Origin: Taklimakanibacter albus
GTDB lineage: Bacteria > Pseudomonadota > Alphaproteobacteria > Rhizobiales > Aestuariivirgaceae
DNA: 64,000 nt
Assembly: GCF_016595235.1 (NCBI RefSeq)
Contig: NZ_JAENHL010000007.1
Location: 1,586,765 to 1,650,764, forward strand
Reading direction: 5' to 3'
Shown: in pieces, positions 10,704 to 26,412 of the stretch
How the letters are laid out: each line of letters begins with the position of its first letter
Numbering within the stretch: the first letter of the stretch is position 1
Position numbers and translations under genes: made by a program
The notes under the pieces: generated by a model
Database searches by the model: none
Told to the model about the DNA's origin: nothing
What the model saw: only the letters and a program-made list of their open reading frames with translations

Positions 10704-11597
10704 CTACCGCCACTTGAAGCGCGGCTCCGGCAGGCCGGTGACGCCAGCCCTGACCGCGAACAGGCTACCGGCCTGCGGCTGGTTTTCGAGCCCGGCACTG
10801 GGGCGGATCGAGGTCACATAGATAATGTCGAGCCTGTCGCCGCCGAAAGCGAGCATGCTCGGCTTGGCGACCGGCAGCGCGATGCGGCGGTCGACGATAC
10901 CCTCCGGCGTGAAGCGGACGATCTCCCAGCCGTCATTGCCGGCCATCCAGTAGCAGCCATCGGCATCGACGGCGCCGCCATCGGGGCGCCCCGGCATGCC
11001 CGATGTGTCGACGAAGACGCGCCGGTTGTGGATCTGGCCGTCATCGGGATCGAGATCCCAGGCCCAGATGGTACGCACCGCCTTGAAGCTGTCGGAATGA
11101 TAAAGCGTGCGCCCGTTGGGGCTGAAGGCGAGCCCGTTGGCGACGAAAAGTCCGCCCGTCATGCGCGTGCAGCGCTGGTCGCCGTCGAATCGATAGAGCG
11201 AGCCTTTCGGTCCCGACGGATCGACCGGGTCCTCCATGCTGCCGACCCAGAAGCGGCCCTGACGGTCGCAGCGCCCGTCATTCACACGGTTATTCGGGAG
11301 ATGCACTTCCGGCTGGACCAGCGGCGTCGTTTGTCCGGTCCGGAGATCGAAGCGCGCCAGGCCGGATTTGAGCGCTACCAGCACACTGCCATCGTCGGTC
11401 AGCGCGAAGGAGCCGATCGGCTCGGACAAGGCCCAGATCCGGTTGACGCCCGTCTCGGGCTCGAAACGGTTGAGACGTCCGGTATAGATGTCGATCCAGT
11501 AGAGGGCTTTCTCCTCGCCGCACCAGACCGGGCATTCGCCGAGCTCGGCCCTGATGTCGAGCACGCAGTCGACCTCGGGCTTGCGCGCGCCCGCCAT
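10704..11597 (-). CDS. SMP-30/gluconolactonase family lactonase
   Basis: A 297-residue six-bladed beta-propeller protein of the SMP-30 family. Recognisable parts are ELGECPVW near residue 17 with the metal-ligand Glu, YWIDIYTGRLNRF, LPNNRVNDGRCDRQGRFWVGSM with the metal-ligand Asn, and MPGRPDGGAVDADGCYW with the metal-ligand Asp. Family enzymes open sugar lactones. The start ATG overlaps the stop of the dipeptide-type ABC ATPase, so it ends that operon. Together with the uronate-dehydrogenase-like gene at 25603 it suggests oxidation of a sugar acid through a lactone. Confidence 0.88.
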   Translation of the reverse strand: MAGARKPEVDCVLDIRAELGECPVWCGEEKALYWIDIYTGRLNRFEPETGVNRIWALSEPIGSFALTDDGSVLVALKSGLARFDLRTGQTTPLVQPEVHLPNNRVNDGRCDRQGRFWVGSMEDPVDPSGPKGSLYRFDGDQRCTRMTGGLFVANGLAFSPNGRTLYHSDSFKAVRTIWAWDLDPDDGQIHNRRVFVDTSGMPGRPDGGAVDADGCYWMAGNDGWEIVRFTPEGIVDRRIALPVAKPSMLAFGGDRLDIIYVTSIRPSAGLENQPQAGSLFAVRAGVTGLPEPRFKWR

Positions 11598-13348
11598 CAG
11601 CCCTCGACCTCGCTTGCATAACGGATGCGCTGGGTCTTGCCGCGCAGGCGCGGGTCGGGCTTCGGGATCGCCGAGATCAGCGAGCGCGTATAGGCGTGGC
11701 TCGGCCGGTCGCATACCGTGTCGGTGTCGCCGATCTCGACGATGCGGCCGCGATGCATGACCGCCACCCGGTCGCACATATAGCGGATCACCCCGATGTC
11801 ATGGCCGATGAAGATGAAGCTCATATCGAACTCGCGGCACAGGCCGAGCAGGAGATCGAGCATATGGGCGCGCAGCGAAACGTCAAGCGCCGAGGTGGCC
11901 TCGTCGGCGACGATGAGCTCGGGCCTGAGCGCGATGGTGCGGGCGATGCCGATGCGCTGGCGCTGGCCGCCGCTGAAGGCATGTGGATAACGCCACATGG
12001 CCTCGCGCGGCAGGCCGACACGCTCCAGAAGTCCCGCCACCTCGGTTTCGAGCGCACGCCTGTCGGTCATCCCGTGATTGAGCAAGGGCTCGGCAATCAC
12101 CTGGAAAACGGTCATGCGCGGGTTGAGCGAGGAGAACGGATCCTGGAAGATCATCCGCATCTTGCGCCAATAAGGCTTGACCGCCGATTTCGGCAGCGCC
12201 GCGAGATCGACCGGCTCGGCGTCGCGCCCCTTGAAGACGATGCGCCCTGAACTTGGATCGAGGACGCGCAGGACGCAGCGCCCGAGCGTCGTCTTGCCGG
12301 AGCCGCTTTCGCCGACGATGCCCAGGACCTCGCCGCGCTTGAGCGTGAAGCTCACATCATCCAGCGCCTTGACCGGCGGCTCCTTCGGGGTGCGGCTGAA
12401 GAAGCGCCGCCGCGCCTCGAAATTCATCGAGACATTGGAGACTTCCAATATTGCATCGTCATTCGAGAGCTTAGGGGCCGGACCGGCGCGGTGCGAGCGC
12501 CGCTCGAGCGCCCTGACCGAGGCCAGAAGCCGCTGCGTATAAGGGTGTTTCGGCGCGAAGAAGATATCGTTCACCGGGCCGTGCTCGACCACTTCGCCCA
12601 TATACATCACGGTCACATCGTCGGCGATCTCGGCGACGACACCCATATCATGAGTGATGAACATCAGCGCCATGCCGTGACGCTGCTGCAGGCCTTTCAT
12701 CAGATCGAGGATCTCGGCCTGGGTGGTGACGTCGAGCGCCGTCGTCGGCTCATCGGCGATGACGAGCTTGGGCTCGCAGATCAGCGCCATCGCCGTCATC
12801 GCGCGCTGGCGCATGCCGCCCGAGAATTCGAACGGATAGGCGTCGATGCTGCGCTCGGGACGCGGGATCTTCACTTGCGCCAGGACCTCGATGGCGCGCT
12901 CACGCGCTTCCTTTTTGCCGATGCGCCGGTGCAGCTGGATGGTCTCCATGATCTGCTGGCCGATCGTATGCACCGGGCTCAGGCTCGACATCGGCTCCTG
13001 GAAGATCATGCTGATGTCGCGCCCGCGCACCGAACGGATCTGCCGTCCCTTGGGATCGAGCGCGGCAAGATCGATCACGTCGCGGCCGGTACCGGCGCCA
13101 TGCAGCAGCACCTGCCCTTTCATGATGCGCCCGGGCTTCGGAACGATATTGAGGATCGAGCGCGCAGTGATGCTCTTGCCGCTGCCGCTTTCGCCGACGA
13201 TGCAATGGGTCCGGCCACGCCTGAGCGTCAGGTTCAGACTTTCGACCGCCTTGATCACCTGTTTGCCGGTATCGAACCAGGTCGAGAGGTCCTTTACTTC
13301 GACGACCACATCATTTGCTTGGGGAGGCATCGGGGGAACGGACGTCAT
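11597..13348 (-). CDS. Dipeptide/oligopeptide-type ABC transporter, fused double ATPase
   Basis: A 583-residue protein with two complete nucleotide-binding domains, equivalent to DppD fused to DppF. Domain 1 (about 12-270): GESGSGKS, FSGGMRQRAMTAMAL, VIADEPT. Domain 2 (about 305-570): GESGSGKTT, FSGGQRQRIGIARTI, IVADEATSALD. Each domain carries the oligopeptide-ATPase C-terminal extension (HPYTQRLLASV, HAYTRSLISAI). The start ATG 13348 overlaps the DppC-type permease stop (ATGA). Such fusions (for example GsiA) energise peptide or glutathione importers, but sugar oligomers and opines are also carried by this class. Confidence 0.92.
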   Translation of the reverse strand: MTSVPPMPPQANDVVVEVKDLSTWFDTGKQVIKAVESLNLTLRRGRTHCIVGESGSGKSITARSILNIVPKPGRIMKGQVLLHGAGTGRDVIDLAALDPKGRQIRSVRGRDISMIFQEPMSSLSPVHTIGQQIMETIQLHRRIGKKEARERAIEVLAQVKIPRPERSIDAYPFEFSGGMRQRAMTAMALICEPKLVIADEPTTALDVTTQAEILDLMKGLQQRHGMALMFITHDMGVVAEIADDVTVMYMGEVVEHGPVNDIFFAPKHPYTQRLLASVRALERRSHRAGPAPKLSNDDAILEVSNVSMNFEARRRFFSRTPKEPPVKALDDVSFTLKRGEVLGIVGESGSGKTTLGRCVLRVLDPSSGRIVFKGRDAEPVDLAALPKSAVKPYWRKMRMIFQDPFSSLNPRMTVFQVIAEPLLNHGMTDRRALETEVAGLLERVGLPREAMWRYPHAFSGGQRQRIGIARTIALRPELIVADEATSALDVSLRAHMLDLLLGLCREFDMSFIFIGHDIGVIRYMCDRVAVMHRGRIVEIGDTDTVCDRPSHAYTRSLISAIPKPDPRLRGKTQRIRYASEVEG

Positions 13349-14502
13349 TGCCGGTAGGGATCCGCGGCATCGCGCAAGCCATCGCCGACGAAATTGAGGG
13401 CCAGCACGGCGATCACCACCGCAACGCCCGGTGCGAAAAGCCAGGGCGCGGTGACGATCGAGCGGATATTCTGCGCCTCTTGCAGCAGAACGCCCCAGCT
13501 CACGATCGGCGGCTGCAGGCCGAGGCCGAGAAAACTCAAGGCCGTCTCGGCCAGGATCATAGCCGGGATGGCAAGGCTGACCTCGGCGATGATGTGGCTG
13601 ACGAAGGACGGCGCCATATGGCGGAAGATGATGCGTGGTTCGCTCGCCCCATCGAGACGCGCCGCGGTGACGAAGTCCTCCGTGCGCAGCGACAGGAAGC
13701 GGCCGCGGATGACGCGCGCCAGATTGGTCCAGCCGATGAGCGACAGGATCAGCGTGATGGCGAAATAGATGCGCAGAGGCGGCCAGTTGTTCGGCATCGC
13801 CGCGGCGAGGCCGAGCCACAAAGGCGTCGTCGGCAAGGACAGGATGAATTCGATGACGCGCTGGATGACATTGTCGATCATGCCGCCCTTGTAGCCCGAT
13901 ATGCCGCCGAGGATGATGCCGAGCACCAGGCTCAGCGCCACGCCGACCAGGCCGATCGACATCGAGATGCGGGTGCCGTAGGTGATACGGCTCAACATGT
14001 CGCGGCCGAGCCGGTCGGCGCCGAGCAGGAACATCGGATCGCCCTTCTTGACCGGCCCGAAGAGCTTGGTTTCGAGCGTGAAGAGCCCGCCCCACATCGG
14101 ATAGGGATCGGATTTGACGAAGAGCCCGACCGGGTATTTCACAGTCTCGTCGACAGTGAAGACGCGGCGCAGCGCCGTCTGCTCGATCGTGACCTTGTAG
14201 CCGTTCACATAGGGACGGAACACCAGGCTGCCCGCCTCGTCACGGTCGAAGAAATGCAGCCGCTGCGGCGGCGCATAGGTATAACGCGGCGTGAAAGCGT
14301 TGGGCGAGAACGGTGCCAGGAACTCGCAGAATATGCCGACGATGGCGATGAACACGAGCACATAGGTGCTCGCCATGGCGAGGCGGTGGCGGCGGAACTG
14401 CCACCACATCAAGCGCCATTGCGATGCGGAATCGCGTTGCGGCGCCACCGCGGCGACGGCGGGCGTCTCGGCTTCGGGCACAGTGGCGGGACTAGTTGTC
14501 AT
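13345..14502 (-). CDS. Dipeptide-type ABC transporter permease (DppC type)
   Basis: A 385-residue permease with an N-terminal cytoplasmic tail, the first helix at about residues 40-60, a long periplasmic insert (about 65-165) and the BPD_transp_1 core (LGADRLGRDMLSRITYGTRIS, coupling loop EDFVTAARLDGASEPRIIFRH). The insert of about 100 residues before the LGAD motif is longer than in E. coli DppC and resembles the YejE/microcin C-type group. It overlaps the DppB-type gene by 11 bases. Confidence 0.9.
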   Translation of the reverse strand: MTTSPATVPEAETPAVAAVAPQRDSASQWRLMWWQFRRHRLAMASTYVLVFIAIVGIFCEFLAPFSPNAFTPRYTYAPPQRLHFFDRDEAGSLVFRPYVNGYKVTIEQTALRRVFTVDETVKYPVGLFVKSDPYPMWGGLFTLETKLFGPVKKGDPMFLLGADRLGRDMLSRITYGTRISMSIGLVGVALSLVLGIILGGISGYKGGMIDNVIQRVIEFILSLPTTPLWLGLAAAMPNNWPPLRIYFAITLILSLIGWTNLARVIRGRFLSLRTEDFVTAARLDGASEPRIIFRHMAPSFVSHIIAEVSLAIPAMILAETALSFLGLGLQPPIVSWGVLLQEAQNIRSIVTAPWLFAPGVAVVIAVLALNFVGDGLRDAADPYRQ

Positions 14503-15478
14503 AACGGATACGCGGATCGACGAAAGCGAGGAGGATATCGGACAACAGCGTGCCGATGAGGACGAGGACGCATTGGAACATGATGAGCGCGCCGCCCAGA
14601 TACATGTCCTGCGTCTTGAGCGCCTGGATCAGGATCGGCCCCGAGGTCGGCAAGCTCAGCACACTCGACACGATGACGTCGCCCGAAACCAGCACCGGCA
14701 GCACCCATCCGACCGTCGAGATGAAGGGATTGAGCGCGACGCGGGTCGGGTAGCGCAGGATGAGGGTCGTCTCCGGCAGGCCCTTGGCGCGGCCGGTTTC
14801 GACATAGGGCTTGCCGAGCTCGTCGAGCAGGTTGGCGCGCATGATGCGCACCAGGGCTGCAATGCCGGCGACCCCCAGCACGACCACCGGGATCCACAGA
14901 TGCTGCACGAGGTCGATGACTCTCGCAAAGCTCCAGGGCGCGTTGACGAAATCCGGCGAGAACAGCCCGCCGACCGAATAGCCGAGGAATTCGACCGAGA
15001 GATACATGACGACGAGGGCAAGCAGGAAGCTCGGCGTCGCCATGCCGAGGAAACTGAGGAAGGTGACGACATAATCGCCGATGCTGTATTGGCGCACGGC
15101 GGAGAAGATGCCGACCGGGAAGGCGACGAGCCACACGAAAGCGAGGGTGCAGAAGGCGACCAGCGTCGTCATGCCGAGCCGGTCCCAGATGATGTCGGAA
15201 ACGGGCGAGCGGTATTCGAAGCTCATGCCGAGATCGCCCTTGAGCGCATTGCCGACCCAGGTGAAATACTGGACGACCATCGGTTGGTCGAGGCCATAGC
15301 GCAGGCGCAGCGCATCGAGCGTGGCGCTATCCGCCGGCGAGCCCGATGTTGCCAGGTCCGCCGCATAGCTGGTGACGAAGTCGCCCGGCGGCAATTGGAT
15401 GATCACGAAAGCGACAACGGTCACCGCGAAGAACGATGGAAACATCCAGAGCAGGCGGCGGAGAATAAAACCGAGCAT
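14492..15478 (-). CDS. Dipeptide-type ABC transporter permease (DppB type)
   Basis: A 328-residue permease with a membrane helix at about 9-29, family motif IIQLPPGDFVTSYAADL, the core LGMATPSFLLALVVMYL and coupling loop YVETGRAKGLPETTLILRYP. I chose ATG 15478, which begins the typical MLGFILRRLLW helix; an earlier in-frame codon would start inside the intercistronic hairpin. It forms a heterodimer with the DppC-type permease. Confidence 0.9.
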   Translation of the reverse strand: MLGFILRRLLWMFPSFFAVTVVAFVIIQLPPGDFVTSYAADLATSGSPADSATLDALRLRYGLDQPMVVQYFTWVGNALKGDLGMSFEYRSPVSDIIWDRLGMTTLVAFCTLAFVWLVAFPVGIFSAVRQYSIGDYVVTFLSFLGMATPSFLLALVVMYLSVEFLGYSVGGLFSPDFVNAPWSFARVIDLVQHLWIPVVVLGVAGIAALVRIMRANLLDELGKPYVETGRAKGLPETTLILRYPTRVALNPFISTVGWVLPVLVSGDVIVSSVLSLPTSGPILIQALKTQDMYLGGALIMFQCVLVLIGTLLSDILLAFVDPRIRYDN

Positions 15479-15547: not shown

Positions 15548-17488
15548 TCAGCGCGGCGGGTCGAAGTAATACTGCTCCGTATTGCTGGCCACCGGGCTCG
15601 GATAGGTCCAGGCGAACGGCCGCGGATAGACATTGTGCAGGTTGTTCTTGACCGCGGCGAACAGCGGGCCCGGCGAATTGATACCGATCGCATAGAACTC
15701 GTCCGCCGCGATATTGAGCAGCTGCTGCATCAGTTCGTTCTGCTTGGACACGTCCGCCGAGCGCAGGATCTCGCGATAGAGGTCCATCTGCTTCTTGGCC
15801 GCAGCCGAGGGCTCCTCGCCCGCTTTGCCGCCCGAGGCGTACCAATTGCCCCACGGCACCGCGAACAGGGTTTCGTTCCAGAACGGGAAGTAGAAGGTCG
15901 GCTCGAACAGCGCGTCACCCATGCCGCCGCTGCCGAGGAACACGGCCGCATCATGCTCATTGGCATCCTTGCGGTCGTAGAACAGCGTGCGGTCGACGGT
16001 CTGCACCTTCGCATCGACGCCGACCGCCTGCCAGTATTGGGCCGTGAGCTGGGTCGAGTCGAGGAAGTCGCCGAGCGCCGGGATAACCATGATGTTGAAG
16101 GTGATCCGCTTGCCGTCCGGTCCGAGACGGAAGCCCTCGCTGTCCTTCTTGGGGAAGGCCTTGTCGAGATGCTCGTTCGCCTTGGCGACGTCGTATTCCG
16201 TATATTGCTTGGCGAGCCGCTCATTGTAATAGGGTGACTCCTTGCGCGGCGCCGCCTGCCACGGTTCACCCTGCCCGACAAAGGCGGCATCGATGATCGC
16301 CTGCCGGTCGATGGCGTAGCTGAGGCCGATACGGAAGTCCTTGTTGTTGAAGATCTCATGCTTCACCGGATCCTTATGGGTCAGGTTGAAGGAGATGATC
16401 GTCGTGTTCATGTCGGCATTAGGCCCATCGGAGAGATGGATCTGCGCCTTCTCCGCCGCATCGGCAAATACCGCGCGGTTGGCGTTGGCGTTCACATGGC
16501 GATCCTGATAGTCGATCTCGCCATTCACCACCTTGAGCACCAGCGTCTGCTTGTCGGCATTCACCGAAACGCTCAGATCGTCGATATAGGGAAGCTGGTT
16601 GCCCTCCGGATCGACCTTGAAATAATAGGGATTGCGCTTGAGCGTCACGAGCGTGGCGCCGCCGATATAGGGGTCCTTGATGACCCAGGGCTCCATGGTC
16701 GGCCGGTCGGGATTCTGCCAGCGTTCATTGGCTTCGGTGTCGACGGCGCATTTCTTGATGAACAGCTCCGTCCAGTTGGCGACCCCGGCTTCCTTGATCA
16801 GCGCGTCCAGGCCGTCCTTGTTATAGGTCGGCTGGAACTGCGAGCAATAATGCTTCGCCATCATCGTCATCTGCACGCCATAGACGCTGGCGAGCTTCTG
16901 CGGGAACACGCCATAGGGCTCTTTGAACGTGATCTTGAAGGTCTTGTCGTCGATCTTCTCGAACTTGCCCGCCTCGCCGCCGCTCATCAGCCAGTCGACG
17001 CCATTCGCCAGCAATTCCTTGTTGCCGGCGATGTCATTGATGAAGAAGCCAATATCGTCGCTGGTGAAGGGCTTGCCGTCCGACCATTTCAGGCCGTCGC
17101 GCAGCCTGATCGTATATTCCTTGGCGTCGGCGCTGTTGGTGATTTCGGCCGCGAGATTGGGGATCACCTTGCCGCTCCATTCGCGGTCCCAGGCGAGCAG
17201 CGGTTCGTAGCCCGCCATGCGGAAGAGCCAGTTGCGGTCGGAGCCGCCGACCATGCCGGAGCGCCAGGTACCGCCATATTTGCCGACCTTCTCGACCGGC
17301 GTGACGACGCGCGGATCTTTCGGCAGTCTTTCGGCGACCGGCGGCAAGGTGCCGGCCTTTACGAGCTCGTCGAGCATCGGCGCCTGCTTGTATTCGACCG
17401 CCAAGGCCGCGGTCGTGCCGAGGCAGAGCGCGCCGAAGGCGGCAAGCAGGCCGCTTATTTTTGGTCGGGTTGTCCCGGAACTCCTCAC
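15548..17488 (-). CDS. Dipeptide-type ABC transporter, substrate-binding protein (family 5)
   Basis: A 646-residue exported binding protein of solute-binding family 5. A signal peptide lies at about residues 12-31 (LLAAFGALCLGTTAALA). Family motifs include YEPLLAWD, YTIRLRDGLKWSDGKPFTSD (split), VTLKRNPYYFKVD and FRIGLSYAIDRQAII. I start it at GTG 17488 because GGGAGG lies seven bases upstream; earlier codons have no ribosome-binding site. It is the first gene of the five-gene importer-lactonase operon, and a 17-bp operator copy lies about 90 bp upstream. Confidence 0.9.
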   Translation of the reverse strand: MRSSGTTRPKISGLLAAFGALCLGTTAALAVEYKQAPMLDELVKAGTLPPVAERLPKDPRVVTPVEKVGKYGGTWRSGMVGGSDRNWLFRMAGYEPLLAWDREWSGKVIPNLAAEITNSADAKEYTIRLRDGLKWSDGKPFTSDDIGFFINDIAGNKELLANGVDWLMSGGEAGKFEKIDDKTFKITFKEPYGVFPQKLASVYGVQMTMMAKHYCSQFQPTYNKDGLDALIKEAGVANWTELFIKKCAVDTEANERWQNPDRPTMEPWVIKDPYIGGATLVTLKRNPYYFKVDPEGNQLPYIDDLSVSVNADKQTLVLKVVNGEIDYQDRHVNANANRAVFADAAEKAQIHLSDGPNADMNTTIISFNLTHKDPVKHEIFNNKDFRIGLSYAIDRQAIIDAAFVGQGEPWQAAPRKESPYYNERLAKQYTEYDVAKANEHLDKAFPKKDSEGFRLGPDGKRITFNIMVIPALGDFLDSTQLTAQYWQAVGVDAKVQTVDRTLFYDRKDANEHDAAVFLGSGGMGDALFEPTFYFPFWNETLFAVPWGNWYASGGKAGEEPSAAAKKQMDLYREILRSADVSKQNELMQQLLNIAADEFYAIGINSPGPLFAAVKNNLHNVYPRPFAWTYPSPVASNTEQYYFDPPR

Positions 17489-17575
17489 TGGTAGTCCTCC
17501 CTGGTTATTTATTGTGGAATTCGACAGTGCGGCGGGTACGCTTACATGTCGGCGACTGACTGTCAAGAAATCATC

Positions 17576-17592
17576 AACTTGTCAGTCATCTT
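17576..17592 (-). promoter_or_regulatory. GntR-type operator copy 1
   Basis: AACTTGTCAGTCATCTT, upstream of the dipeptide-type importer operon. It is one of five related 17-bp sites (consensus AACTTGTCTKACATCTT, core TGTC-N-GACA) found only in front of transcription units of the 10.7-26.4 kb island. Confidence 0.7.
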
Positions 17593-17701
17593 TTGAGAAC
17601 CTGGCCGACTAACATATCACTCCCGGAAATTGGGCGTTTCTGCCACATTTTGTACATTTCCGGAGTGCCTTGCTGGAAAATCGTTGAATCTCGAAGGGAC
17701 A

Positions 17702-17718
17702 AAGATGTAAGACAAGTT
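17702..17718 (+). promoter_or_regulatory. GntR-type operator copy 2
   Basis: On the minus strand this reads AACTTGTCTTACATCTT. It lies 34 bp before the DSD1 start codon, at the other side of the divergent region from copy 1. A short TTG-started extension of the DSD1 frame would overlap it, which argues for ATG 17753 as the start. Confidence 0.7.
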
Positions 17719-17752
17719 GGAGGAAACATCCGCAGGAACGGTGCGAAGACCA

Positions 17753-19069
17753 ATGACCACCATCGATTTGACCGCCATCGAGGCCTTTGCACTCGACCGG
17801 ACGGTGAAGGGCATGCCGGGCGATCTCTCGCCCATAGCGCTCAGAGATATCGGCAAACGCGGCTGGAATGTGCTGCGCGAAGACCTGCCCTTGCCGGCAG
17901 CGGTGATGCGCGAAAGCGCCATCGCACATAACAGCGCCTGGATGCGGCGTTATCTCGAGGCAACCGGCGCCGACATCGCGCCGCACGGCAAGACGACGAT
18001 GAGCCCGCAGCTCTTCGCCCGCCAGGTGAAGGATGGCGCCTGGGCGATCACCATCGGATCGGTCGAGCAGCTGCAGGTGGCGCGGCAATTCGGATTCCAG
18101 CGCCTTCTCCTCGCCAACCAGCCGGTCGGCGCCAAGTCGCAGCGCTACATCGTCGAGGAGCTCAAGCGCCACAAGCAATTCGATTTCTATTGCTTCGTCG
18201 ATTCGGTCGACCTCGTCCGCCAGCTCAGCGCCGTCGCGCGTGACGGCAAGCTCGATCGCCCCATCCAGGTGATCATCGAAGGCGGTTTTGCCGGCGGCCG
18301 CACCGGCTGCCGCACGCTCGAAGAAGCGCTCGCGGTGGCGCGCGCCGTCAAGGCCGCCACTCCCTATCTCTCCTTGCGCGGCGTCGGCGGCTATGAAGGC
18401 CTGCTGCGCCGGCCCGCGCCCGATGAATCGGCCAAGGTGGTCGACGGCTTTCTTACTTTCCTTCTCGACATCGCTCTGGGCTGCGACCGTGAGGATCTGT
18501 TCGGCGACGGCGAAATCATCCTGACCGCCGGCGGCACCGTCTTCTACGATCTGGTGACCCGGCATTTCGGTGCGGCGAAGATGTCGCGCCCGATCCGCGT
18601 CGTGCTGCGCTGCGGCTGCTACATCACCCATGATTCGGCGAGCTACGTGGCGCATTTCGAGCAGCTGCGGGCCCGCAATGGCTGGGTCGACGATCTGGGC
18701 CCCGGCCCCCAGGCGGCCCTCGAAGTCTGGGCCTATGTGCAATCGCGCCCGGAGCCCGGCAAGGCTCTTCTCACCGTCGGACGACGTGACATCTCCTTCG
18801 ATTCGGCTATGCCGACACCGCTGAAATGGTTGCGCCCAGGCCCTGGCGTCACCGCCGCCGATCTGCGCCCGATCGGGCCCGATCACGTCGTGACCGGGCT
18901 CAACGACCAGCACTGCCACCTCAAGATCCCGGACACGAGCCCACTCGCCGTCGGCGACATGGTGGCCTTCGGCATCTCGCATCCCTGCACCACTTTCGAC
19001 AAATGGCAGGTGATCTCCGTCGTCGACGATGACTACAATGTCGTCTCGGCCATCCGCACTTTCTTCTGA
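17753..19069 (+). CDS. DSD1-family PLP enzyme (D-threonine aldolase / D-serine dehydratase type)
   Basis: A 438-residue fold-type III PLP enzyme. The N-terminal alanine-racemase-like barrel has the PLP lysine in DIAPHGKTTMSPQ (about residue 80). The C-terminal domain carries the metal site in DQHCHLK (about 384-390) and GDMVAFGISHPCTTF with a second His/Cys pair, as in D-serine dehydratase and D-threo-3-hydroxyaspartate dehydratase. Family members split or dehydrate beta-hydroxy D-amino acids. The first gene of a unit with the RraA-like gene, directly behind an operator copy. Its imine product would suit the RidA encoded nearby. Confidence 0.87.
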   Translation: MTTIDLTAIEAFALDRTVKGMPGDLSPIALRDIGKRGWNVLREDLPLPAAVMRESAIAHNSAWMRRYLEATGADIAPHGKTTMSPQLFARQVKDGAWAITIGSVEQLQVARQFGFQRLLLANQPVGAKSQRYIVEELKRHKQFDFYCFVDSVDLVRQLSAVARDGKLDRPIQVIIEGGFAGGRTGCRTLEEALAVARAVKAATPYLSLRGVGGYEGLLRRPAPDESAKVVDGFLTFLLDIALGCDREDLFGDGEIILTAGGTVFYDLVTRHFGAAKMSRPIRVVLRCGCYITHDSASYVAHFEQLRARNGWVDDLGPGPQAALEVWAYVQSRPEPGKALLTVGRRDISFDSAMPTPLKWLRPGPGVTAADLRPIGPDHVVTGLNDQHCHLKIPDTSPLAVGDMVAFGISHPCTTFDKWQVISVVDDDYNVVSAIRTFF

Positions 19070-19098
19070 TCAGATCTCAGCAACCAGGAAGCCTCACG

Positions 19099-19815
19099 AT
19101 GAGCCCCGAACCCCTTTCCCCCGAAACCCGCAGCCTGCTGGCTGAGATCAGCACTGCCACGCTGACCTCGCAGTTGATGGCACGCGGCTTGCGCAACACC
19201 TTCATGCAGAAGGTGTACCGGCTGACCACTGGCGGCCCGTCCATGGTCGGTGAAGCCTTCACGCTGCGCTATATCCCGGCGCGCGAGGACATCGATGTGT
19301 CGGCCGTCTTCGAAGACCGCAACCATCCGCAGCGCAAGGCGGTCGAGACCATCCCTTCGGGCCATGTGCTGGTCATTGACTGCCGCCAGGATATCCGCGC
19401 CGCCGGCGCCGGAAGCATTCTCGTCACCCGCACGATGATGAAGGGCGCCGCGGGCGTCGTCACCGATGGCGGCTTGCGCGATTCGCCCACCATCGAAGCC
19501 TTGGATTATCCGGTCTATTGCGGCGGCCGCTCCGCCCCCACCAATCTGACGCGTCATCATGCGGTCGACATCAATGTGCCGATCGGCTGCGGCGATGTGC
19601 CGGTCTATCCGGGCGATATCATCGTCGGCGACCGCGAGGGCGTGGTGGTCATTCCACGCCATCTCGCCGACGAGGTGGCAAAACAGGGCAAAGAACAGAC
19701 GCTGATGGAGGACTTCGTCACCGAACGTGTTCTCGCCGGGCAGTCGACCTTCGGTCTCTATCCGCCCAATGCCGAGACGCTGGCGCAGTTCGAGGCGTGG
19801 AAGAAGCAGCGCTGA
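19099..19815 (+). CDS. RraA-like / HMG-aldolase family protein
   Basis: A 238-residue protein of the RraA/4-hydroxy-4-methyl-2-oxoglutarate aldolase superfamily. The active-site region GAAGVVTDGGLRDSPTIEAL (about 114-133) contains the G-x(20)-R-D type substrate and metal motif, and GDIIVGDREGVVVIP (about 174-188) is the second signature. Many catabolic members are metal-dependent aldolases or oxaloacetate decarboxylases rather than RNase regulators. It follows DSD1 by 29 bp and is probably co-transcribed. Confidence 0.8.
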   Translation: MSPEPLSPETRSLLAEISTATLTSQLMARGLRNTFMQKVYRLTTGGPSMVGEAFTLRYIPAREDIDVSAVFEDRNHPQRKAVETIPSGHVLVIDCRQDIRAAGAGSILVTRTMMKGAAGVVTDGGLRDSPTIEALDYPVYCGGRSAPTNLTRHHAVDINVPIGCGDVPVYPGDIIVGDREGVVVIPRHLADEVAKQGKEQTLMEDFVTERVLAGQSTFGLYPPNAETLAQFEAWKKQR

Positions 19816-19835
19816 CAGAGTTCAACACTACCTCC

Positions 19836-19935
19836 GTCATCCCGGCGAAAGCCGGGACCCAATAAACGCCATCCACGCGACCATCGCTGCCCAGCTTGCG
19901 CTTATTCAATGGGCCCCGGCTTTCGCCGGGGTGAC
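19836..19935. repeat. Inverted pair of CCCGGCGAAAGCCGGG palindromic repeats
   Basis: Two copies in opposite orientation: GTCATCCCGGCGAAAGCCGGG at 19836 onwards and its inverted relative CCCCGGCTTTCGCCGGGGTGAC ending at 19935, with TTATTGGGT/ATTCAATGGG extensions. Each arm is itself a hairpin, and the pair can form one large structure. It lies between the convergent RraA and flavoprotein genes and may terminate both. This class of repeat is widespread in alphaproteobacteria. Confidence 0.75.
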
Positions 19936-19960
19936 ACTATTGAAAAATGACGGGGGCGCC

Positions 19961-22195
19961 TCACACCACGTGATCACCAAGCTTCGGGAAAGTCTCGTGG
20001 CCCCAGATCTGCCTTTCGCGGATGATCGCTTTCGGTCGCTCCGGATTGACGCTCTCGAATTCACGCGCGATCCGGTGACCGTCGAAGATTGCGTCCGCCA
20101 AGTAGCGCGGCGCCAGGCAATCGCCTGAGCGCACCACCGTTTCGAGGCCGGCGTCCTGCCAGCGCGGCTTGAGCGCCATCACGCCATCATAAAGCTCGGT
20201 CTTCGCTTCGCGCGACGTGCACAGGATCACGCTGTCGCAATCGAGGATTTCGACCGCATCGCCGAGCCGGCGCGGATAGACGCCAGTCTGGGGCGTGGTG
20301 GTGCGCCGCGAGCCGTCGCGATAGCGGTCATAAAGCACAACCTCGACGCCATTGCCCGCCTTATCGACCTTGTCGACCCAATGGCCGGTGCGCTCCTTGA
20401 TGCCCTTCTCGCGCAGCATGCGGCGCAGATTGTAGCCTTCGAGCGTGAGCGCCGTCATCGGCGCGACGGTTTCGAGATGCGTCACCAGAGTCACCTGCTT
20501 GCCCTGGTCGGCAAGAACCTCGGCGATGCTGATGGCCATGAAATACCCGTCCGAATCGAGCACCACGACGCGCTCGCCGATCGCCTTGCCGGCGAAGAAC
20601 TGCTCCGGCGTGACGAAATGATCGAGCGCCGCGTCGATGCCTGGAATTGTGTCGGGCCCGCTGGCGCCGAGCCCGTTGCCGGCCCAGCGGGCGCCCGTCG
20701 CCAGCACGACGCGCCGCGCGCCGTAATCAAGGATGTCTTCCGCCGTGACGAGGCCGGTGCCGCGCATCACCGTCACATTGGGCATGCGCGCGATCTGGCT
20801 CTCGCGATAGTCATAGACGCGGCCCCATTCGGCGAGACCGGGCAGCCGCACGACGTCGCGCAGATGGCCGCCGAGCTGTTCCTTCGCCTCGACGAGATGC
20901 ACCTCATAGCCGCGCTTGCCCAGCACGCGGGCGCATTCGAGACCGGAAGGACCCGCGCCCACCACCAGCACCATTTCGGGATTGGGCGTGGGCTCGAAGC
21001 GCTCCGGATGCCAGCCGCGCCGATATTCCTCGAGCGCCGTCGGATTCTGCGTGCAGATGATCATGTTGTTGAGGTTGAAGCGCGAGACGCAGGCATTGCA
21101 GCCGATGCATTCGCAGATGTCCTCGACGCGACCTTCGTCGATCTTGCGCGGCAGCCAGGGATCGGCGATCGAGGGCCGCGCCGCGCCGATGATGTCGAGC
21201 TGGCCCGAGCGGATCACCCGCACCATTTCGTCGGGCTCGGTGAAGCGTCCGACTCCCACCACCGGCACCTTGGCGATGCGTTTGACTTCGGCGTTCCACG
21301 GCGACTGGTGGTTCGATTTGTAGAAGCGCGAGGGACCGGAATCCTCGCCCCACATATCCTCGCCCGAGCCGCCGATGATGATGTCCCACATGTCGACGAG
21401 GCCGAGCTTGGTGATGTACTCGACGAAAGCGAGGCCCTCATCGCGAAGCTCCAGCCCCCAAGGACCGGCGAGGTCGTCGATCGAGATACGCGTCGCCACC
21501 GCGCAGTCATCGCCCGCGACTTTCTTCAGCCGTTCCAGCGCCTCGACCCAGAAGCGGGCGCGATTTTCGAACGAGCCACCATATCCGTCGGTACGGCGGT
21601 TGAAATGGCGCGACAGAGCATGCACCGGGAAAACGCCGGCGGCACCGTGAATATAGAGAATGTCGAAGCCGGCATCCTTGGCGCGCCGTGCCGCATCCTC
21701 ATACATCTGCATGATGCGGGCGATGTCTTCCTCGGTCGCGGCATAGGTATAGACCTTGGGTGTACCGCCGGACGGAAAGCGGTCGAAGGCGGCCGCCACA
21801 TAGCGGCTCCACAGATTGTCCTTGACCCCACCGGCGCCGAGCTCGACGCCGGCGAGCGCCCCCCATTTATGGACCTCGTCCACCATGTGGCGATGGTTGA
21901 TGACGTCGCCCTCGTCCCACATCGTCGTGTTGGTCGAGGTTGACTGGTTGACCTCGGGATGGATCGAGCAGGATTCGGTCGACAGCCCGCCCCAGCCGCC
22001 TTCCGCCTTGACGGCGCGATGGCCGGCATTCGAACCGGGGCGCGGATGACCGGCGCCGGTGCATTGCGGCACCTGGTAGAAGCGGTTCTTCATCACCTTG
22101 GGGCCGATGCGGATCGGCTCGAACAGGAGATCGTAGCGCGGGTCGCGCCGGCGCGGCGCCGTGCCGGTCGGGTGGGCTGCCGGTGCCTGGGTCAT
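19961..22195 (-). CDS. Trimethylamine-dehydrogenase-like FMN/[4Fe-4S] oxidoreductase
   Basis: A 744-residue flavoprotein of the old-yellow-enzyme/TMADH family. An FMN TIM barrel covers about 20-370, the cluster ligands are in CIGCNACVSRFNLNNMIIC, and an FAD/NAD-type domain follows (VLVVGAGPSGLECARVLG). The cluster spacing and ICTQNP tail match trimethylamine and dimethylamine dehydrogenases and N-methylproline demethylases, so an N-methylated amine is a likely substrate. The start ATG 22195 overlaps the RidA stop (ATGA). Confidence 0.85.
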   Translation of the reverse strand: MTQAPAAHPTGTAPRRRDPRYDLLFEPIRIGPKVMKNRFYQVPQCTGAGHPRPGSNAGHRAVKAEGGWGGLSTESCSIHPEVNQSTSTNTTMWDEGDVINHRHMVDEVHKWGALAGVELGAGGVKDNLWSRYVAAAFDRFPSGGTPKVYTYAATEEDIARIMQMYEDAARRAKDAGFDILYIHGAAGVFPVHALSRHFNRRTDGYGGSFENRARFWVEALERLKKVAGDDCAVATRISIDDLAGPWGLELRDEGLAFVEYITKLGLVDMWDIIIGGSGEDMWGEDSGPSRFYKSNHQSPWNAEVKRIAKVPVVGVGRFTEPDEMVRVIRSGQLDIIGAARPSIADPWLPRKIDEGRVEDICECIGCNACVSRFNLNNMIICTQNPTALEEYRRGWHPERFEPTPNPEMVLVVGAGPSGLECARVLGKRGYEVHLVEAKEQLGGHLRDVVRLPGLAEWGRVYDYRESQIARMPNVTVMRGTGLVTAEDILDYGARRVVLATGARWAGNGLGASGPDTIPGIDAALDHFVTPEQFFAGKAIGERVVVLDSDGYFMAISIAEVLADQGKQVTLVTHLETVAPMTALTLEGYNLRRMLREKGIKERTGHWVDKVDKAGNGVEVVLYDRYRDGSRRTTTPQTGVYPRRLGDAVEILDCDSVILCTSREAKTELYDGVMALKPRWQDAGLETVVRSGDCLAPRYLADAIFDGHRIAREFESVNPERPKAIIRERQIWGHETFPKLGDHVV

Positions 22196-22665
22196 GGCGC
22201 GATTTCCACGATGGCTTCGACTTCGACGCCGACGCCACGCGGCAGAGTAGCGACACCGATGGCGCTGCGCGCATGCCGGCCGGCCTCGCCGAAGACTTCC
22301 ATCAGCAGCTCCGAGGCGCCATTGGCGACACTCGAGGCATCGATGAAGGACGGCGCGGCATTGACGAAGACGGTGAGCTTCAGGAAGCGCTTCACCCGGT
22401 CGATGCGGCCGTCGAGCGCCTCTTCGAGCTGGACCAGGAGGTTGAGCGCACACAGCCGCGCCGCCTTGTAGCCGTCTTCATTGCTGAGCGTGTCGCCGAG
22501 ACGGCCCTTGAACATGATCTCGTCGCCGCGCCGGGGGATCTGTCCCGACATGAAGACGAGATTGCCCATTGTCGCGGCCTGGAGAAAGAAGGCCGAACCC
22601 GGCTTCGCGACGGGCGGCAGTTCCGCACCGAGGGCGGCGAGGCGGTCTTTGAAATTCACGCTCAT
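22192..22665 (-). CDS. RidA-family enamine/imine deaminase
   Basis: A 157-residue RidA/YjgF family protein (LVFMSGQIPRRGDE, LTVFVNAAPSF, GRHARSAIGVATLPRGVGVE with the catalytic Arg preceding SAIGV). It has the longer form seen in several Rid subgroups. RidA proteins hydrolyse reactive enamine and imine intermediates released by PLP dehydratases. Co-transcription with the TMADH-like enzyme and regulon membership of a DSD1-type enzyme fit that role. An operator copy lies about 92 bp upstream. Confidence 0.88.
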   Translation of the reverse strand: MSVNFKDRLAALGAELPPVAKPGSAFFLQAATMGNLVFMSGQIPRRGDEIMFKGRLGDTLSNEDGYKAARLCALNLLVQLEEALDGRIDRVKRFLKLTVFVNAAPSFIDASSVANGASELLMEVFGEAGRHARSAIGVATLPRGVGVEVEAIVEIAP

Positions 22666-22756
22666 ATTATGGAGTTCCTGTCCGGTGATAGAGGGTTCGT
22701 CGGCAGCCCGGCCCCTTATGCGAGGCCCGATCTTGCGTTACGGCGCAGTAATTGTA

Positions 22757-22773
22757 AACTTATCTGACATCTT
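22757..22773 (-). promoter_or_regulatory. GntR-type operator copy 3
   Basis: AACTTATCTGACATCTT, in the divergent region between ridA and the GntR gene. It may control both the RidA/flavoprotein unit and the regulator itself. Confidence 0.7.
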
Positions 22774-22888
22774 TGGGCAAGCCATCCTTTGGGGGACTTG
22801 CACAAGATCGGGCGATGCTGCAAACACGGACGAGTTGCAACCGGCGCGAACAACGCGCGACAGAACGTAAAAAACGGGAGACAGGGAT

Positions 22889-23641
22889 TTGGCTCGCAAA
22901 TCCAGCGAAAGGCCGCGCAGTAAAGCGGACTGGCAGGTGCAGTCACCCAGCCGGCCATCGCGCCTTGCCGACCAGCTTTATGGCCAGATCCTCGACCGCA
23001 TCGTTTCCGGCGCTCTGCCCGAAGGCGAAAAGCTGCCGTCGGAAAGCCAGCTCTGCGAGCTGTACAGCGTGTCGCGGCCGGTGGTGCGCGAAGCCCTGTC
23101 GCGCCTGCAGGCCGATCGCGTCGTCATTTCACGCCATGGCTCCGGCACCTTCGTGCAGCGCCGACCCAACCAGGCTTTCTCGCTCCTGGCGCCGATCGAC
23201 GACATCGCCGGACTGATGCGCTGCATGGAGTTCCGCATCGGGCTCGAGGGCGAAGCGGCCTTTCTCGCCGCCACAAGGCGCACCGAGGCCGATCTCGACC
23301 GCATGAAGCGTGCTTTCGACGAGCTCGAGAAAGTCATTGCCCGGGGCGAGGTCGGCAGCGAGGCGGATCAGGCTTTCCATGTGGCGATCGGCGCCGCCGC
23401 CCAGAACCAGCTTTTCGTTCAGATGATGGAAGTGCTCTCCGAGCATACGTTGCGCGGCATGGAGCTCGCCCGCACCTTGTCGCTGCGCCAAAGCACGAGG
23501 CGCCTGCAGCTCGTCCAGCAGGAGCACAGCCGCATCCTCGCCGCGATCGCCGCCGAGGAGCCGGAAGAAGCCCGCAACGCCATGCGCACCCATATCGACA
23601 ATGCGCGGCTGCGCGTCCTCAGCGACAGTATCGAGCCGTAA
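22889..23641 (+). CDS. GntR-family (FCD/FadR subgroup) transcriptional regulator
   Basis: A 250-residue regulator: winged helix-turn-helix at about 25-95 (EGEKLPSESQLCELYSVSR, VVREALSRLQADRVV) and an all-helical FCD ligand domain at about 110-240 with the metal-type residues in EADQAFHVAIG and THIDNARLR. The start is TTG 22889 behind GGGAGACAGG; no ATG or GTG gives a complete domain. It lies in the middle of the catabolic island, and the 17-bp palindromes around it are its probable binding sites. Confidence 0.9.
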   Translation: MARKSSERPRSKADWQVQSPSRPSRLADQLYGQILDRIVSGALPEGEKLPSESQLCELYSVSRPVVREALSRLQADRVVISRHGSGTFVQRRPNQAFSLLAPIDDIAGLMRCMEFRIGLEGEAAFLAATRRTEADLDRMKRAFDELEKVIARGEVGSEADQAFHVAIGAAAQNQLFVQMMEVLSEHTLRGMELARTLSLRQSTRRLQLVQQEHSRILAAIAAEEPEEARNAMRTHIDNARLRVLSDSIEP

Positions 23642-23645
23642 CGGG

Positions 23646-24560
23646 CTAAGCAGCCTTTGCCAGCGCCGCGTCACGCATCTGCAACTCGCGCGCCACCGGA
23701 GCGACCCGTGCCCGTTCGGCGTCATCGAGATTGGACAGAAGCGGCAGGATCGGCCCCATATCGGCGATGCCGGCAAGCGTCACCCCGTCATGCAGCACGC
23801 GCGTCGGATTGATCCCGTCGCGCTCATTCTCGAAGGGCAGGAAGATCTCGCGCAGGCGCTGGGCCTCGTCATAGGCTTCCGCTTTGAGCGCCGCGAGCAG
23901 CGCGCTCGACAGCCGGGGCGCGATCGCCACCGACCCCGAGGTGAAGCCTCGAAGCCCGAATTGCCGCCAATGCTGGATCGCCGGCCGCTCGCCGATGCCG
24001 CTGATGATGCGCGACCGGTCGACCGCCGTGACGAGCTGGCTCAGATAGGGATCGCGGCTCGGATCATCGCGCACGATCGCATATTTGATGGCGCTGACCA
24101 GGCCCTTGTCACAGAGCCGCGCCACCGAAGCCACCGAGAGATAGCTCTCCGCTTTGAGATAGAGGATGACCGGCTTGCCCAACGCATCGGCGAAACGGCT
24201 GATACCGTCGGCGGTGCCGGCATCGGTCGCAAACCCGCTGGCCGGCAGGACCATCGCCGTCGGGAACGGCCGCTCGCGTAGATACCGCGCCTGATCCATG
24301 AGCTTGCCGAAATCGGGACCGGCCGAGGGAATGATCCAGCTCGAAGGCTGGGCGAGCTCGAGCAGCATGTCGAGCACGCGCGGATAGTCGCTCAAGCCCA
24401 GGTGATAGAAATTGGCGTTGCCGCCATACATCAGCGTCGAGACGCCGCCCGCTTCGAGATGGCGGATGAGCGCCGCATTGGCTTTGATGTTGAGGGTCAG
24501 GTCGGCGTTGCGGGCCAGCGGCGGTACCGCCACGACCGATTTTCCCGGATCGCTATGCAC
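23646..24560 (-). CDS. DapA-family lyase/aldolase
   Basis: A 304-residue TIM-barrel protein of the dihydrodipicolinate synthase/N-acetylneuraminate lyase superfamily. The Schiff-base lysine is in LVSAIKYAIVRDD (about residue 160), with the preceding KPVILYLKAESY strand. Genuine lysine biosynthesis is unlikely given the context; members next to uronate dehydrogenases commonly act on 2-keto-3-deoxy sugar acids. It ends 4 bp from the convergent GntR gene and has an operator copy about 90 bp upstream. Confidence 0.82.
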   Translation of the reverse strand: MHSDPGKSVVAVPPLARNADLTLNIKANAALIRHLEAGGVSTLMYGGNANFYHLGLSDYPRVLDMLLELAQPSSWIIPSAGPDFGKLMDQARYLRERPFPTAMVLPASGFATDAGTADGISRFADALGKPVILYLKAESYLSVASVARLCDKGLVSAIKYAIVRDDPSRDPYLSQLVTAVDRSRIISGIGERPAIQHWRQFGLRGFTSGSVAIAPRLSSALLAALKAEAYDEAQRLREIFLPFENERDGINPTRVLHDGVTLAGIADMGPILPLLSNLDDAERARVAPVARELQMRDAALAKAA

Positions 24561-24647
24561 AGGCTTTTCCTCGTCGCAGAGATGATGGTTGCAAGAAGCG
24601 ACCTCAGTCCTAGCCTCTCATCCGCGCATGAGTCAACCCAAGACATA

Positions 24648-24664
24648 AACTTGTCTTACGTCTT
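24648..24664 (-). promoter_or_regulatory. GntR-type operator copy 4
   Basis: AACTTGTCTTACGTCTT, in the 104-bp space between the amidohydrolase stop and the DapA-like start, giving this gene its own regulated promoter. Confidence 0.7.
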
Positions 24665-25489
24665 TTATGCAGAAATACCGAACAGGCGCGCCGCTGTCCC
24701 GCCCATGACCAGTTCCTTGTCGGCCGCGCCGAGGCCCGGGAAATCCGCGCCCCATTGAATGAGCTTTTCGTAACTGCATATATTCGCGGCCCCCGGATAG
24801 TCCGAGCCATACATGAGGCGCTCCGCCCCGAAACGGGCGAGAACCTCCCGATAGAAGGCGACGACATCGGGAAATGGATAGGCGGTCTTCGTATCTTCCG
24901 CGGTGCAGAGCAGCTTGAAATAGATATTGGGATGCCCCGCCAGAAGATCGAGATAGGGCGCCGCGTCGGTCCGCGCATGAATCTCCGGCCCCAGATAATC
25001 GACGATCAAAGGTAGCGAGCGATGCTGCGCCGCCAGCCGGGCGATCACCGGCGCCTGCTCGATATCCATCTGAAAGGCGACGGAAACCCCCATATGCTCA
25101 ACAGTATCGAAGAGGCCTTGATAGTCGGGACCGGCGAGCTTCGTGACATCGCCGCGCAGGATCGTGTTGAGGCGCAAGCCGCCGCCAAGCCCTTTGGCGA
25201 CGAGATCGAGGAAATCCTCCCGCGGTGTCGCCGAACGCAGATCGACGAGGCCGACGCCGATAAAGCGGTCGGGCGCCGTCTTGACGCTGTCGATCAGATA
25301 GCTGTGATCGCGGCCATAGACGCTGGGCTGCACCAGGATCGCCTTGTCGACCTCTGCGCGCGCCATATCGGCGAGCAGCCTTTCCACCGGGGCGGCATAG
25401 GTCGGCGGCGGCACATGGGCGAGCAGCGGCTGCCACGGATAGGCAATGGGATCGCTGGACCAGACATGCAGGTGGGAATCGACGATCAT
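24665..25489 (-). CDS. Amidohydrolase family 2 TIM-barrel protein
   Basis: A 274-residue metal-dependent hydrolase of the amidohydrolase-2 group: N-terminal metal site VDSHLHVW (residues 3-10), central QMDIEQAP and VDYLGPEI segments, and C-terminal YGSDYPGA with the conserved Asp. Members close to sugar-acid clusters are often lactonases (for example L-fuconolactone or galactonolactone hydrolases). I start at ATG 25489; longer forms would run through the operator at 25547-25563. Confidence 0.82.
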   Translation of the reverse strand: MIVDSHLHVWSSDPIAYPWQPLLAHVPPPTYAAPVERLLADMARAEVDKAILVQPSVYGRDHSYLIDSVKTAPDRFIGVGLVDLRSATPREDFLDLVAKGLGGGLRLNTILRGDVTKLAGPDYQGLFDTVEHMGVSVAFQMDIEQAPVIARLAAQHRSLPLIVDYLGPEIHARTDAAPYLDLLAGHPNIYFKLLCTAEDTKTAYPFPDVVAFYREVLARFGAERLMYGSDYPGAANICSYEKLIQWGADFPGLGAADKELVMGGTAARLFGISA

Positions 25490-25546
25490 GGGGCCTCGGG
25501 GGACGATGCGATTTGTCACATCTTGAAGGATGGTGGCCAGCATATA

Positions 25547-25563
25547 AACTCGCCTGACAAGTT
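25547..25563. promoter_or_regulatory. GntR-type operator copy 5
   Basis: AACTCGCCTGACAAGTT, the most symmetrical of the five copies (AACT-N3-C-T-G-N3-AGTT). It lies between the divergent amidohydrolase and uronate-dehydrogenase-like genes. A gapped partial match (TTTGTCACATCTT, 25512-25524) is close by. Confidence 0.7.
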
Positions 25564-25602
25564 TGTCCAAGCCCAGATCACAAAAACCGGGATCTCTCCA
25601 CC

Positions 25603-26412
25603 ATGACCGACACCCGCCCGACCCTCTTCACCGGCGCCGCCGGGATTCTCGGCCGCTGGCTGAGGCCCCGGCTCGCTGAGAAATATGGGCGCCTACGCTC
25701 CTCCGATGTCGTCGAATTCGGCCCGGCGCTGCCCGGCGAGGAGATCGTCATCACCGATCTCGCCGATGCGGCGGCGGTGGACCGCATGGTGGAAGGCGTC
25801 GGACGGATCATCCATTTCGGCGGCATCTCTTATGAGTCGACCTTCGACCGCATCCTCCAGTCCAATATCGCCGGCACCTATAATGTCTTCGAGGCGGCGC
25901 GCCGGCATGATGCCGGTCCCATCGTCTATTCGAGTTCCAACCACGCCATCGGCTTCTACACCCGCGATGACCGCCTCGATGCCAGTGTCCCTCAGCGCCC
26001 GGACTCGCTCTATGGCGTGTCCAAGGCCTTCGGCGAGGACCTGGCGAGCTTCTTCGCCGACAAATACGGCATGGACATCGCCTGCCTGCGCATCGGCACG
26101 GCGAGGCCCGATCCGACCGACGTGCGCCAGCTCTCGACCTGGCAGAGCTATGAGGATCTCCTGCGCATGATCGAAGCCTGCTTCGACGCCCCGAAGCTCG
26201 GCTGCACCATTCTCTATGGCGTATCGAACAATGACCGGCGCTGGTGGAGCAATGAGCTCGCCCCCCATGTCGACTATCGCCCGCAGGACAATGCCGAGAC
26301 CTTCGCCGCCAAACTGATCCCTGATGGCGATAAGCGTGATCTCAACGATCCGGCGGTCAAATATCAGGGCGGCGTTTTCGTCGCCGATGGTTACGCACCC
26401 AAACGGCGCTAG
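25603..26412 (+). CDS. Uronate-dehydrogenase-like NAD-dependent epimerase/dehydratase family protein
   Basis: A 269-residue extended SDR. TGAAGILGRWLRPRLAEKYG begins the NAD site. Closely Udh-like segments follow: IIHFGGISYE, ILQSNIAGTYNVFEAARR, YSSSNHAIGFY, the catalytic YGVSKAFGED, and LSTWQSYEDLLRMIEA. Uronate dehydrogenase oxidises galacturonate or glucuronate to the aldarolactone, which would fit the SMP-30 lactonase and DapA-like lyase in the same region. The final TAG shares the CTAG with the convergent unknown gene. Confidence 0.82.
   Translation: MTDTRPTLFTGAAGILGRWLRPRLAEKYGRLRSSDVVEFGPALPGEEIVITDLADAAAVDRMVEGVGRIIHFGGISYESTFDRILQSNIAGTYNVFEAARRHDAGPIVYSSSNHAIGFYTRDDRLDASVPQRPDSLYGVSKAFGEDLASFFADKYGMDIACLRIGTARPDPTDVRQLSTWQSYEDLLRMIEACFDAPKLGCTILYGVSNNDRRWWSNELAPHVDYRPQDNAETFAAKLIPDGDKRDLNDPAVKYQGGVFVADGYAPKRR

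Follow-up and report, generated by a model that had tools for sequence, protein, structure and literature searches.

Five candidate operators of an FCD-type GntR regulator in a uronate-related catabolic cluster of Taklimakanibacter albus

A 64-kb stretch of the Taklimakanibacter albus genome (contig NZ_JAENHL010000007.1; the whole stretch is called the window below) carries five 17-bp sites (S1 to S5) together with a gene, gntR, for a GntR-family regulator with an FCD domain (at 22889), and through these sites the soil bacterium probably switches on genes for sugar-acid import and catabolism together. The regulator is like members of the FadR subfamily (PdhR, LldR, GlcC, ExuR and DgoR) in joining a GntR winged helix to an FCD domain and in being encoded inside its local regulon, and the sites have the operator core GT-N3-AC that passages of PMC4494728 give for these groups and as the usual spacing in the subfamily. 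It is unlike them in that the boxes are TTGT/ACAA, the K of TKGT being T rather than G, and in having Ser where Arg is commonest at position 28 of the numbering in those passages (PMC4494728), a position that we take to be Ser53 here. The best NCBIfam scores of the 22889 protein were obtained with the LldR and PdhR models and lay far under their cut-offs.

GntR-family control of hexuronate use is also described for ExuR and UxuR of E. coli in parts of PMC9369180, and a hexuronate isomerase route in parts of PMC6353982. Unlike the E. coli hexuronate regulons, the present cluster encodes uronate dehydrogenase, lactonase-like and DapA-like proteins along with amine-handling enzymes. The isomerase route of the PMC6353982 passages is presumably that of E. 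coli. The same passages (PMC6353982) set out the steps by which Agrobacterium tumefaciens degrades galacturonate oxidatively (Udh, Gli, Gci and KdgD). The cluster encodes a clearly related Udh, and it also has an amidohydrolase and a DapA-superfamily protein. It departs from that pathway in the score of its DapA-like protein, 37 bits where the subfamily cut-off is 278, in the lack of an enolase-superfamily match among ten scanned proteins and in the additional DSD1, RraA, RidA and trimethylamine dehydrogenase (TMADH)-like proteins. Gli belongs to the amidohydrolases, and KdgD is related to DapA. A nicotine cluster resembles the present one in combining Pno, a TMADH/histamine-dehydrogenase-like enzyme, with Rid6 in a single catabolic cluster (PMC7688666, in the parts available); its substrate context is another, and here the flavoprotein and ridA genes overlap by 4 bp. 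No paper on the present cluster was found among the titles listed when the open-licence literature was searched via the regulator, the enzymes, the importer and the genus.

Sites and their conservation

All five sites named in the initial annotation were recovered at the positions it had assigned (Table 1), and all are intergenic according to our own reading of the genes, from which the GTG start at 17488 and the starts of the importer permease and ATPase genes were also taken. S4 ends 1 base short of the amidohydrolase stop codon (24665-24667), in a gap separating two genes of the same direction. The asymmetric string originally read by eye, AACTTGTCTKACATCTT, gave four window matches with up to three mismatches, against a mean of 0.07 in shuffled sequence; S5 was missed because it is too divergent for this string, and it took rank 5 of the window under symmetric and asymmetric weight matrices alike. 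With a symmetric matrix built from the five sites they occupied ranks 1-5 of the window at 21.8-25.1 bits, and the statement that the window holds no further copy was borne out, rank 6 being a match of only 12.9 bits at 38435. In leave-one-out runs the symmetric matrix placed the sites at ranks 1-5; the asymmetric one spread them over ranks 1-6, with S5 sixth. The genome (7.17 Mb in nine contigs) was searched with degenerate patterns and a reversed-pattern control. Up to two mismatches of AACTTGTCWKACAWSTT were found at seven places; besides the five sites these were two near-matches touching coding DNA, which were set aside, one (contig 8, 413572) overlying the start codon of an enoyl-CoA hydratase-like frame and the other (contig 7, 638655) within a solute-binding-protein-like frame (both frames named by our own reading). 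Many equally good matches elsewhere had been named beforehand as speaking against a regulon; the genome held these two extra places. With up to three mismatches allowed, the pattern itself gave fewer strand-specific hits than the control (45 versus 90), so specificity lies in the best matches only and the weaker ones carry no signal.

The sites had been described as palindromes. The symmetry is clear in the consensus, but single sites are imperfect, with 4-6 of 8 self-complementary pairs, and at least 5 of 8 pairs are reached by about 4% of all window positions. Across 23 sites from five loci one half is near-fixed (AACTTGTC); the other is loose and, starting at its own end, has the consensus AAGATGTC. 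The palindrome in each site is imperfect and polarised. The consensus takes the form AACTTGTC-N-KACATSTT, in which the GT-N3-AC core is set in palindromic flanks; among the five window sites, GT and AC are both intact in S2 and S4 only. The near-fixed half faces the start of the regulated gene at S1, S2 and S4, whose targets are unambiguous, and in three counterparts from Bosea sp. 117.

Comparison with orthologous clusters had been proposed as a check, and sites were present at the matching promoters of all five genomes with a close orthologue of the regulator (79-99% identity: G001, G002, G003, G039 and Bosea sp. 117). The three congeneric genomes (G001, G003 and G002, the last being Taklimakanibacter lacteus, locus L003) have the same gene order and five sites each. 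G039, from another family, has four sites, the counterpart of S2 reaching only 15.5 bits; S5 and udh were not found in the 20-kb stretch fetched. The genes of Bosea sp. 117 (L004) are rearranged, and its four sites lie upstream of the importer operon, upstream of rraA (weak, 13.4 bits), in the gap between the SMP-30 gene and gntR, and upstream of dapA; the 20.7 kb fetched showed no DSD1, ridA or udh. Column conservation was counted in four aligned intergenic regions of the window, G003, G002 and G039 (for S5 the window, G003 and G002 only); the near-identical G001 was excluded from these counts and from the 23-site consensus. The sites formed conserved islands, with 14 to 16 of 17 columns invariant (Table 1) versus 33-49% over the whole intergenic regions. 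Other alignment windows overlapping or adjoining the sites were equally conserved (from 7 of 88 to 20 of 98 per region), because conservation continues into nearby promoter-like boxes. When 60 relatives were searched with up to one mismatch, matches were obtained in 5/5 genomes with a close orthologue and in 12/55 others, each of which had one or two strand-specific hits; the control with the pattern reversed matched in 13/60.

Regulator and mode of control

The assignment of the 22889 product to the FCD-type GntR proteins was confirmed by Pfam scores of 78.4 bits for PF00392 (cut-off 27) and 94.8 bits for PF07729 (cut-off 24.3). D160, H164, H213 and H235 were invariant in 12/12 aligned homologues; an Asp-His-His-His set provides the metal ligands of many FCD domains. 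The predicted DNA-contact residues are Ser53, Pro64, Val65 and Gly84 (S/P/V/G), which we take to correspond to Arg35, Thr46, Thr47 and Gly66 of FadR. Positions 28, 39, 40 and 59 of GntR proteins are linked to letters of their sites in passages of PMC4494728. The S/P/V/G set is common to the close orthologues and recurs in a homologue of 45% identity (G166), whose genome has AAGTTGTATGACAAATT upstream of gntR and AAGTTGTCTTACAACTT upstream of rraA; sites of the type TTGTCNGACAA occur upstream of gntR in G217 (set KPVG) and G044 (QPVG).

The sites travel with the regulator, also in the rearranged Bosea sp. 117 and in G166, and this comparative evidence, as strong as is customary for predicted regulons, gives good support to the regulon put forward in the initial annotation: the five sites are very probably operators of the FCD-type GntR protein from 22889, with autoregulated repression as the most likely mode. 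From the sites, their conservation, their linkage to the regulator and the gene families, all read from sequence, we infer that a dimer of the 22889 protein binds the 17-bp polarised, imperfect palindrome and most likely represses its own gene together with the importer/SMP-30, DSD1-rraA, ridA-flavoprotein, dapA, amidohydrolase and udh genes; the repressor would be released when its FCD domain binds an intermediate derived from the imported substance, most probably a hexuronate or a product of hexuronate oxidation. Control of gntR itself had been suggested with a perhaps. It is probably exerted through S3, and the suggestion is strengthened by a site in the SMP-30/gntR gap of Bosea sp. 117, where the fetched locus has no ridA, and by another before gntR of G166.

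Repression is the likely mode because a dimer bound at S2, S3 or S5 would exclude RNA polymerase. The best-conserved promoter-like pair before ridA, TTGCCC-18-TACAAT, has S3 plus one base as its spacer; that before the amidohydrolase gene, TGGACA-17-TATATG (one of two tied best pairs), has exactly S5; and S2 overlaps the -10 box of one of two equally good promoter-like pairs for DSD1. A DNA loop joining S1 and S2 was weighed but not taken up: the distance from one site start to the other is 125-126 bp within the genus, 145 bp in G039 and 196 bp in Bosea.

Several observations weigh against repression by the 22889 protein at all five sites. S1 and S4 are both upstream of the best -35-like box at their promoters (TTGACA and TTGACT), with centres at about -53 and -56 by our estimate of the start sites from promoter-like boxes, an arrangement unlike simple steric repression. 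The promoter-like matches are statistically weak (3 found versus 1.7 expected) and rest mainly on conservation, and the + strand pair for gntR itself scored low. When 32 loci with gntR homologues were scanned (a consensus match being accepted at a shuffle p of at most 0.02), six had a match, two from close orthologues (L012 and L004) and L015, L018, L063 and L070, and no convincing match was seen in the other 26; the motif is thus confined to close relatives and a small number of distant ones. One of four loci with the same contact residues (L071) had no good site upstream of gntR, and four of nine loci with an APTG set, all of one genus, showed a different palindrome, CGGTGNTACCG (counted without a shuffle control). 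Finally, the absence of the S/P/V/G set from own-genome paralogues, which speaks for the 22889 protein, was seen in a sample of 14 out of at least 44 other GntR-like matches scored.

The position of S1 and S4 bears on whether the 22889 protein, while repressing at S2, S3 and S5, activates or is dual at least at the importer and dapA promoters. TTGACA by S1 is kept in 5/5 aligned genomes and TTGACT by S4 in 4/5, with both sites upstream of the boxes, as activation would have it; neither box has a good -10 partner (AAGCGT and TAGGAC), so the start sites are guesses, and repression is the commoner mode in the FadR subfamily. Repression from farther away may also apply at S1 and S4, and we regard activation as unlikely on this balance. 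It is less probable still that gntR is merely a target and that a GntR paralogue or an unlinked protein binds the sites. In favour of this, other GntR-like matches number at least 44 in the genome, and a related site lies at the start of one paralogue; against it, none of the 14 paralogues examined shares the contact residues, 13 of them have no upstream match above 10/16, and sites and gntR stay linked in the rearranged cluster of Bosea and in G166, a distant case. That the sites are chance similarities or a dispersed repeat is hardly credible, since, although the weak genomic matches are noise (at three mismatches fewer than in the control), five of the seven best places fall in one 8-kb cluster, are intergenic and are conserved while their flanks diverge.

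Apart from the preferred reading, in which the 22889 protein represses through the five sites, some features of related loci were recorded. The paralogous GntR gene with the related site (L087; own genome G000, contig 8) has AACTGGTCTGACAGCCT at 667733-667749 near its start, and its contact residues are R/P/T/G, as expected for a TGGT-type box. In L014, L081 and L084 (G057, G306 and G407, of one genus) the best consensus match is GAGTTGACAGATAATTA, 148-216 bp before the gntR homologue; with a shuffle p of 0.33-0.38 each, it is possibly a diverged operator.

Controlled genes and possible substrate

Control of this kind is commonplace; the combination of enzymes under it is less usual. Thirteen genes are joined in one predicted co-regulated unit (Table 1), which makes the question of the substrate testable, as a compound that induces udh would be expected to act on the amine dehydrogenase and RidA genes as well. 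The predicted operator is defined well enough for a direct test and for finding the inducer.

Table 1. Predicted operators and genes of the cluster (window coordinates)
Feature	Coordinates	Strand	Location or role	Basis
S1, AACTTGTCAGTCATCTT	17576..17592	+	upstream of importer operon (solute-binding protein to SMP-30)	14/17 columns invariant
S2, AACTTGTCTTACATCTT	17702..17718	-	upstream of DSD1-rraA	14/17 columns invariant
S3, AACTTATCTGACATCTT	22757..22773	+	ridA/gntR gap	14/17 columns invariant
S4, AACTTGTCTTACGTCTT	24648..24664	+	upstream of DapA-like gene	15/17 columns invariant
S5, AACTTGTCAGGCGAGTT	25547..25563	-	amidohydrolase/Udh-like gap	16/17 columns invariant (window, G003, G002 only)
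SMP-30/gluconolactonase-like	10704..11597	-	last gene of importer operon	PF08450
Two permease genes and double ATPase gene	11597..15478	-	same importer	open frames conserved in orthologous clusters
Solute-binding protein, SPH1118-like	15548..17488	-		GTG start at 17488
DSD1-type pyridoxal-phosphate (PLP) enzyme (D-serine deaminase-like)	17753..19069	+		family matches
RraA-like aldolase family protein	19099..19815	+		family matches
TMADH-like flavoprotein	19961..22195	-		1djn, 733 bits
RidA-family protein	22192..22665	-		4-bp overlap with flavoprotein gene
GntR-family regulator with FCD domain	22889..23641	+		Pfam PF00392 and PF07729 above cut-off
DapA-superfamily protein, weakly KdgD-like	23646..24560	-		family matches
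Amidohydrolase-2 family protein (lactonase-like)	24665..25492	-		family matches
Uronate-dehydrogenase-like protein	25603..26412	+		3rft, 3ay3 matches

Two of the earlier gene names could be refined, the dipeptide-type importer to one resembling a pectin-binding-protein system and the flavoprotein to a TMADH-like one. Over 601 aligned residues the importer binding protein shares 234 (39%) with SPH1118, a pectin-binding protein of Sphingomonas sp. A1 according to parts of PMC9314435. As far as the contact residues of SPH1118 are given in those parts, Asn53, Arg57, Glu216, Arg466, Glu505 and Trp594 at the first galacturonate are kept and Arg496 is not, while at the outer units Phe592 is retained and the other residues, Ser298, Asn324, Arg438, Asp483 and Val484, are changed. 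Because the first-unit residues are mostly kept and the outer ones mostly changed, a single uronate unit is a plausible ligand of the importer. The Udh-like protein scored as a uronate dehydrogenase (266 bits to 3rft and 257 bits to 3ay3, over 255 and 258 residues). The DapA-like protein resembles KdgD only weakly, with 37.2 bits to NF002958 (cut-off 278) and 27.7 bits to TIGR03249 (cut-off 374), and for galactarolactone cycloisomerase no enolase-superfamily match was found among the ten regulon proteins scanned, a set that leaves out the permeases, the ATPase and the rest of the genome.

For the flavoprotein, a plain old-yellow-enzyme reading was dropped in favour of the TMADH-like one. It could be aligned to TMADH over query residues 17-737, with Cys30 and the 4Fe-4S cysteines kept (numbering counted by us). 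In TMADH we take Cys30 to be the flavin-linking residue, these cysteines to hold the 4Fe-4S cluster, and Tyr60, Trp264 and Trp355 to form the aromatic bowl for the substrate. By our reading of the alignment only Trp264 of the bowl is kept, Tyr60 being replaced by Ser and Trp355 by Phe, and Tyr169 and His172 are replaced by His and Ala. Since the bowl residues differ, the amine substrate is probably another than that of TMADH.

We could name no single catabolic pathway that matches this set of genes, and the mix of enzymes hints at a substrate that is a uronate and contains nitrogen as well. Tentatively, and with more doubt than confidence, the regulon may serve an undescribed pathway for such a nitrogen-bearing uronate, such as an amino-sugar acid or a uronate conjugate of the amine or amide type. 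The uronate-binding importer and Udh would then act with the TMADH-like amine dehydrogenase, RidA, the DSD1-type PLP enzyme and the RraA-like aldolase, RidA being paired with the TMADH-like enzyme for imine hydrolysis, and all would stand under one repressor.

In six further loci (L031, L090, L091, L092, L093 and L096) a regulator homologue of 44-48% identity has rraA adjoining or within a few kb, and in L031, L091, L092 and L093 TRAP-transporter or short-chain dehydrogenase/reductase (SDR) genes lie near the regulator homologue or rraA. Between the converging rraA and flavoprotein genes of the window, positions 19836-19935 hold a pair of inverted 26-base units resembling repetitive extragenic palindromic (REP) elements, GTCATCCCGGCGAAAGCCGGGACCCA and a variant. 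With up to three mismatches, GTCATCCCGGCGAAAGCCGGGACCCA gave no match in G039, 70 in the own genome and 194 in G002.

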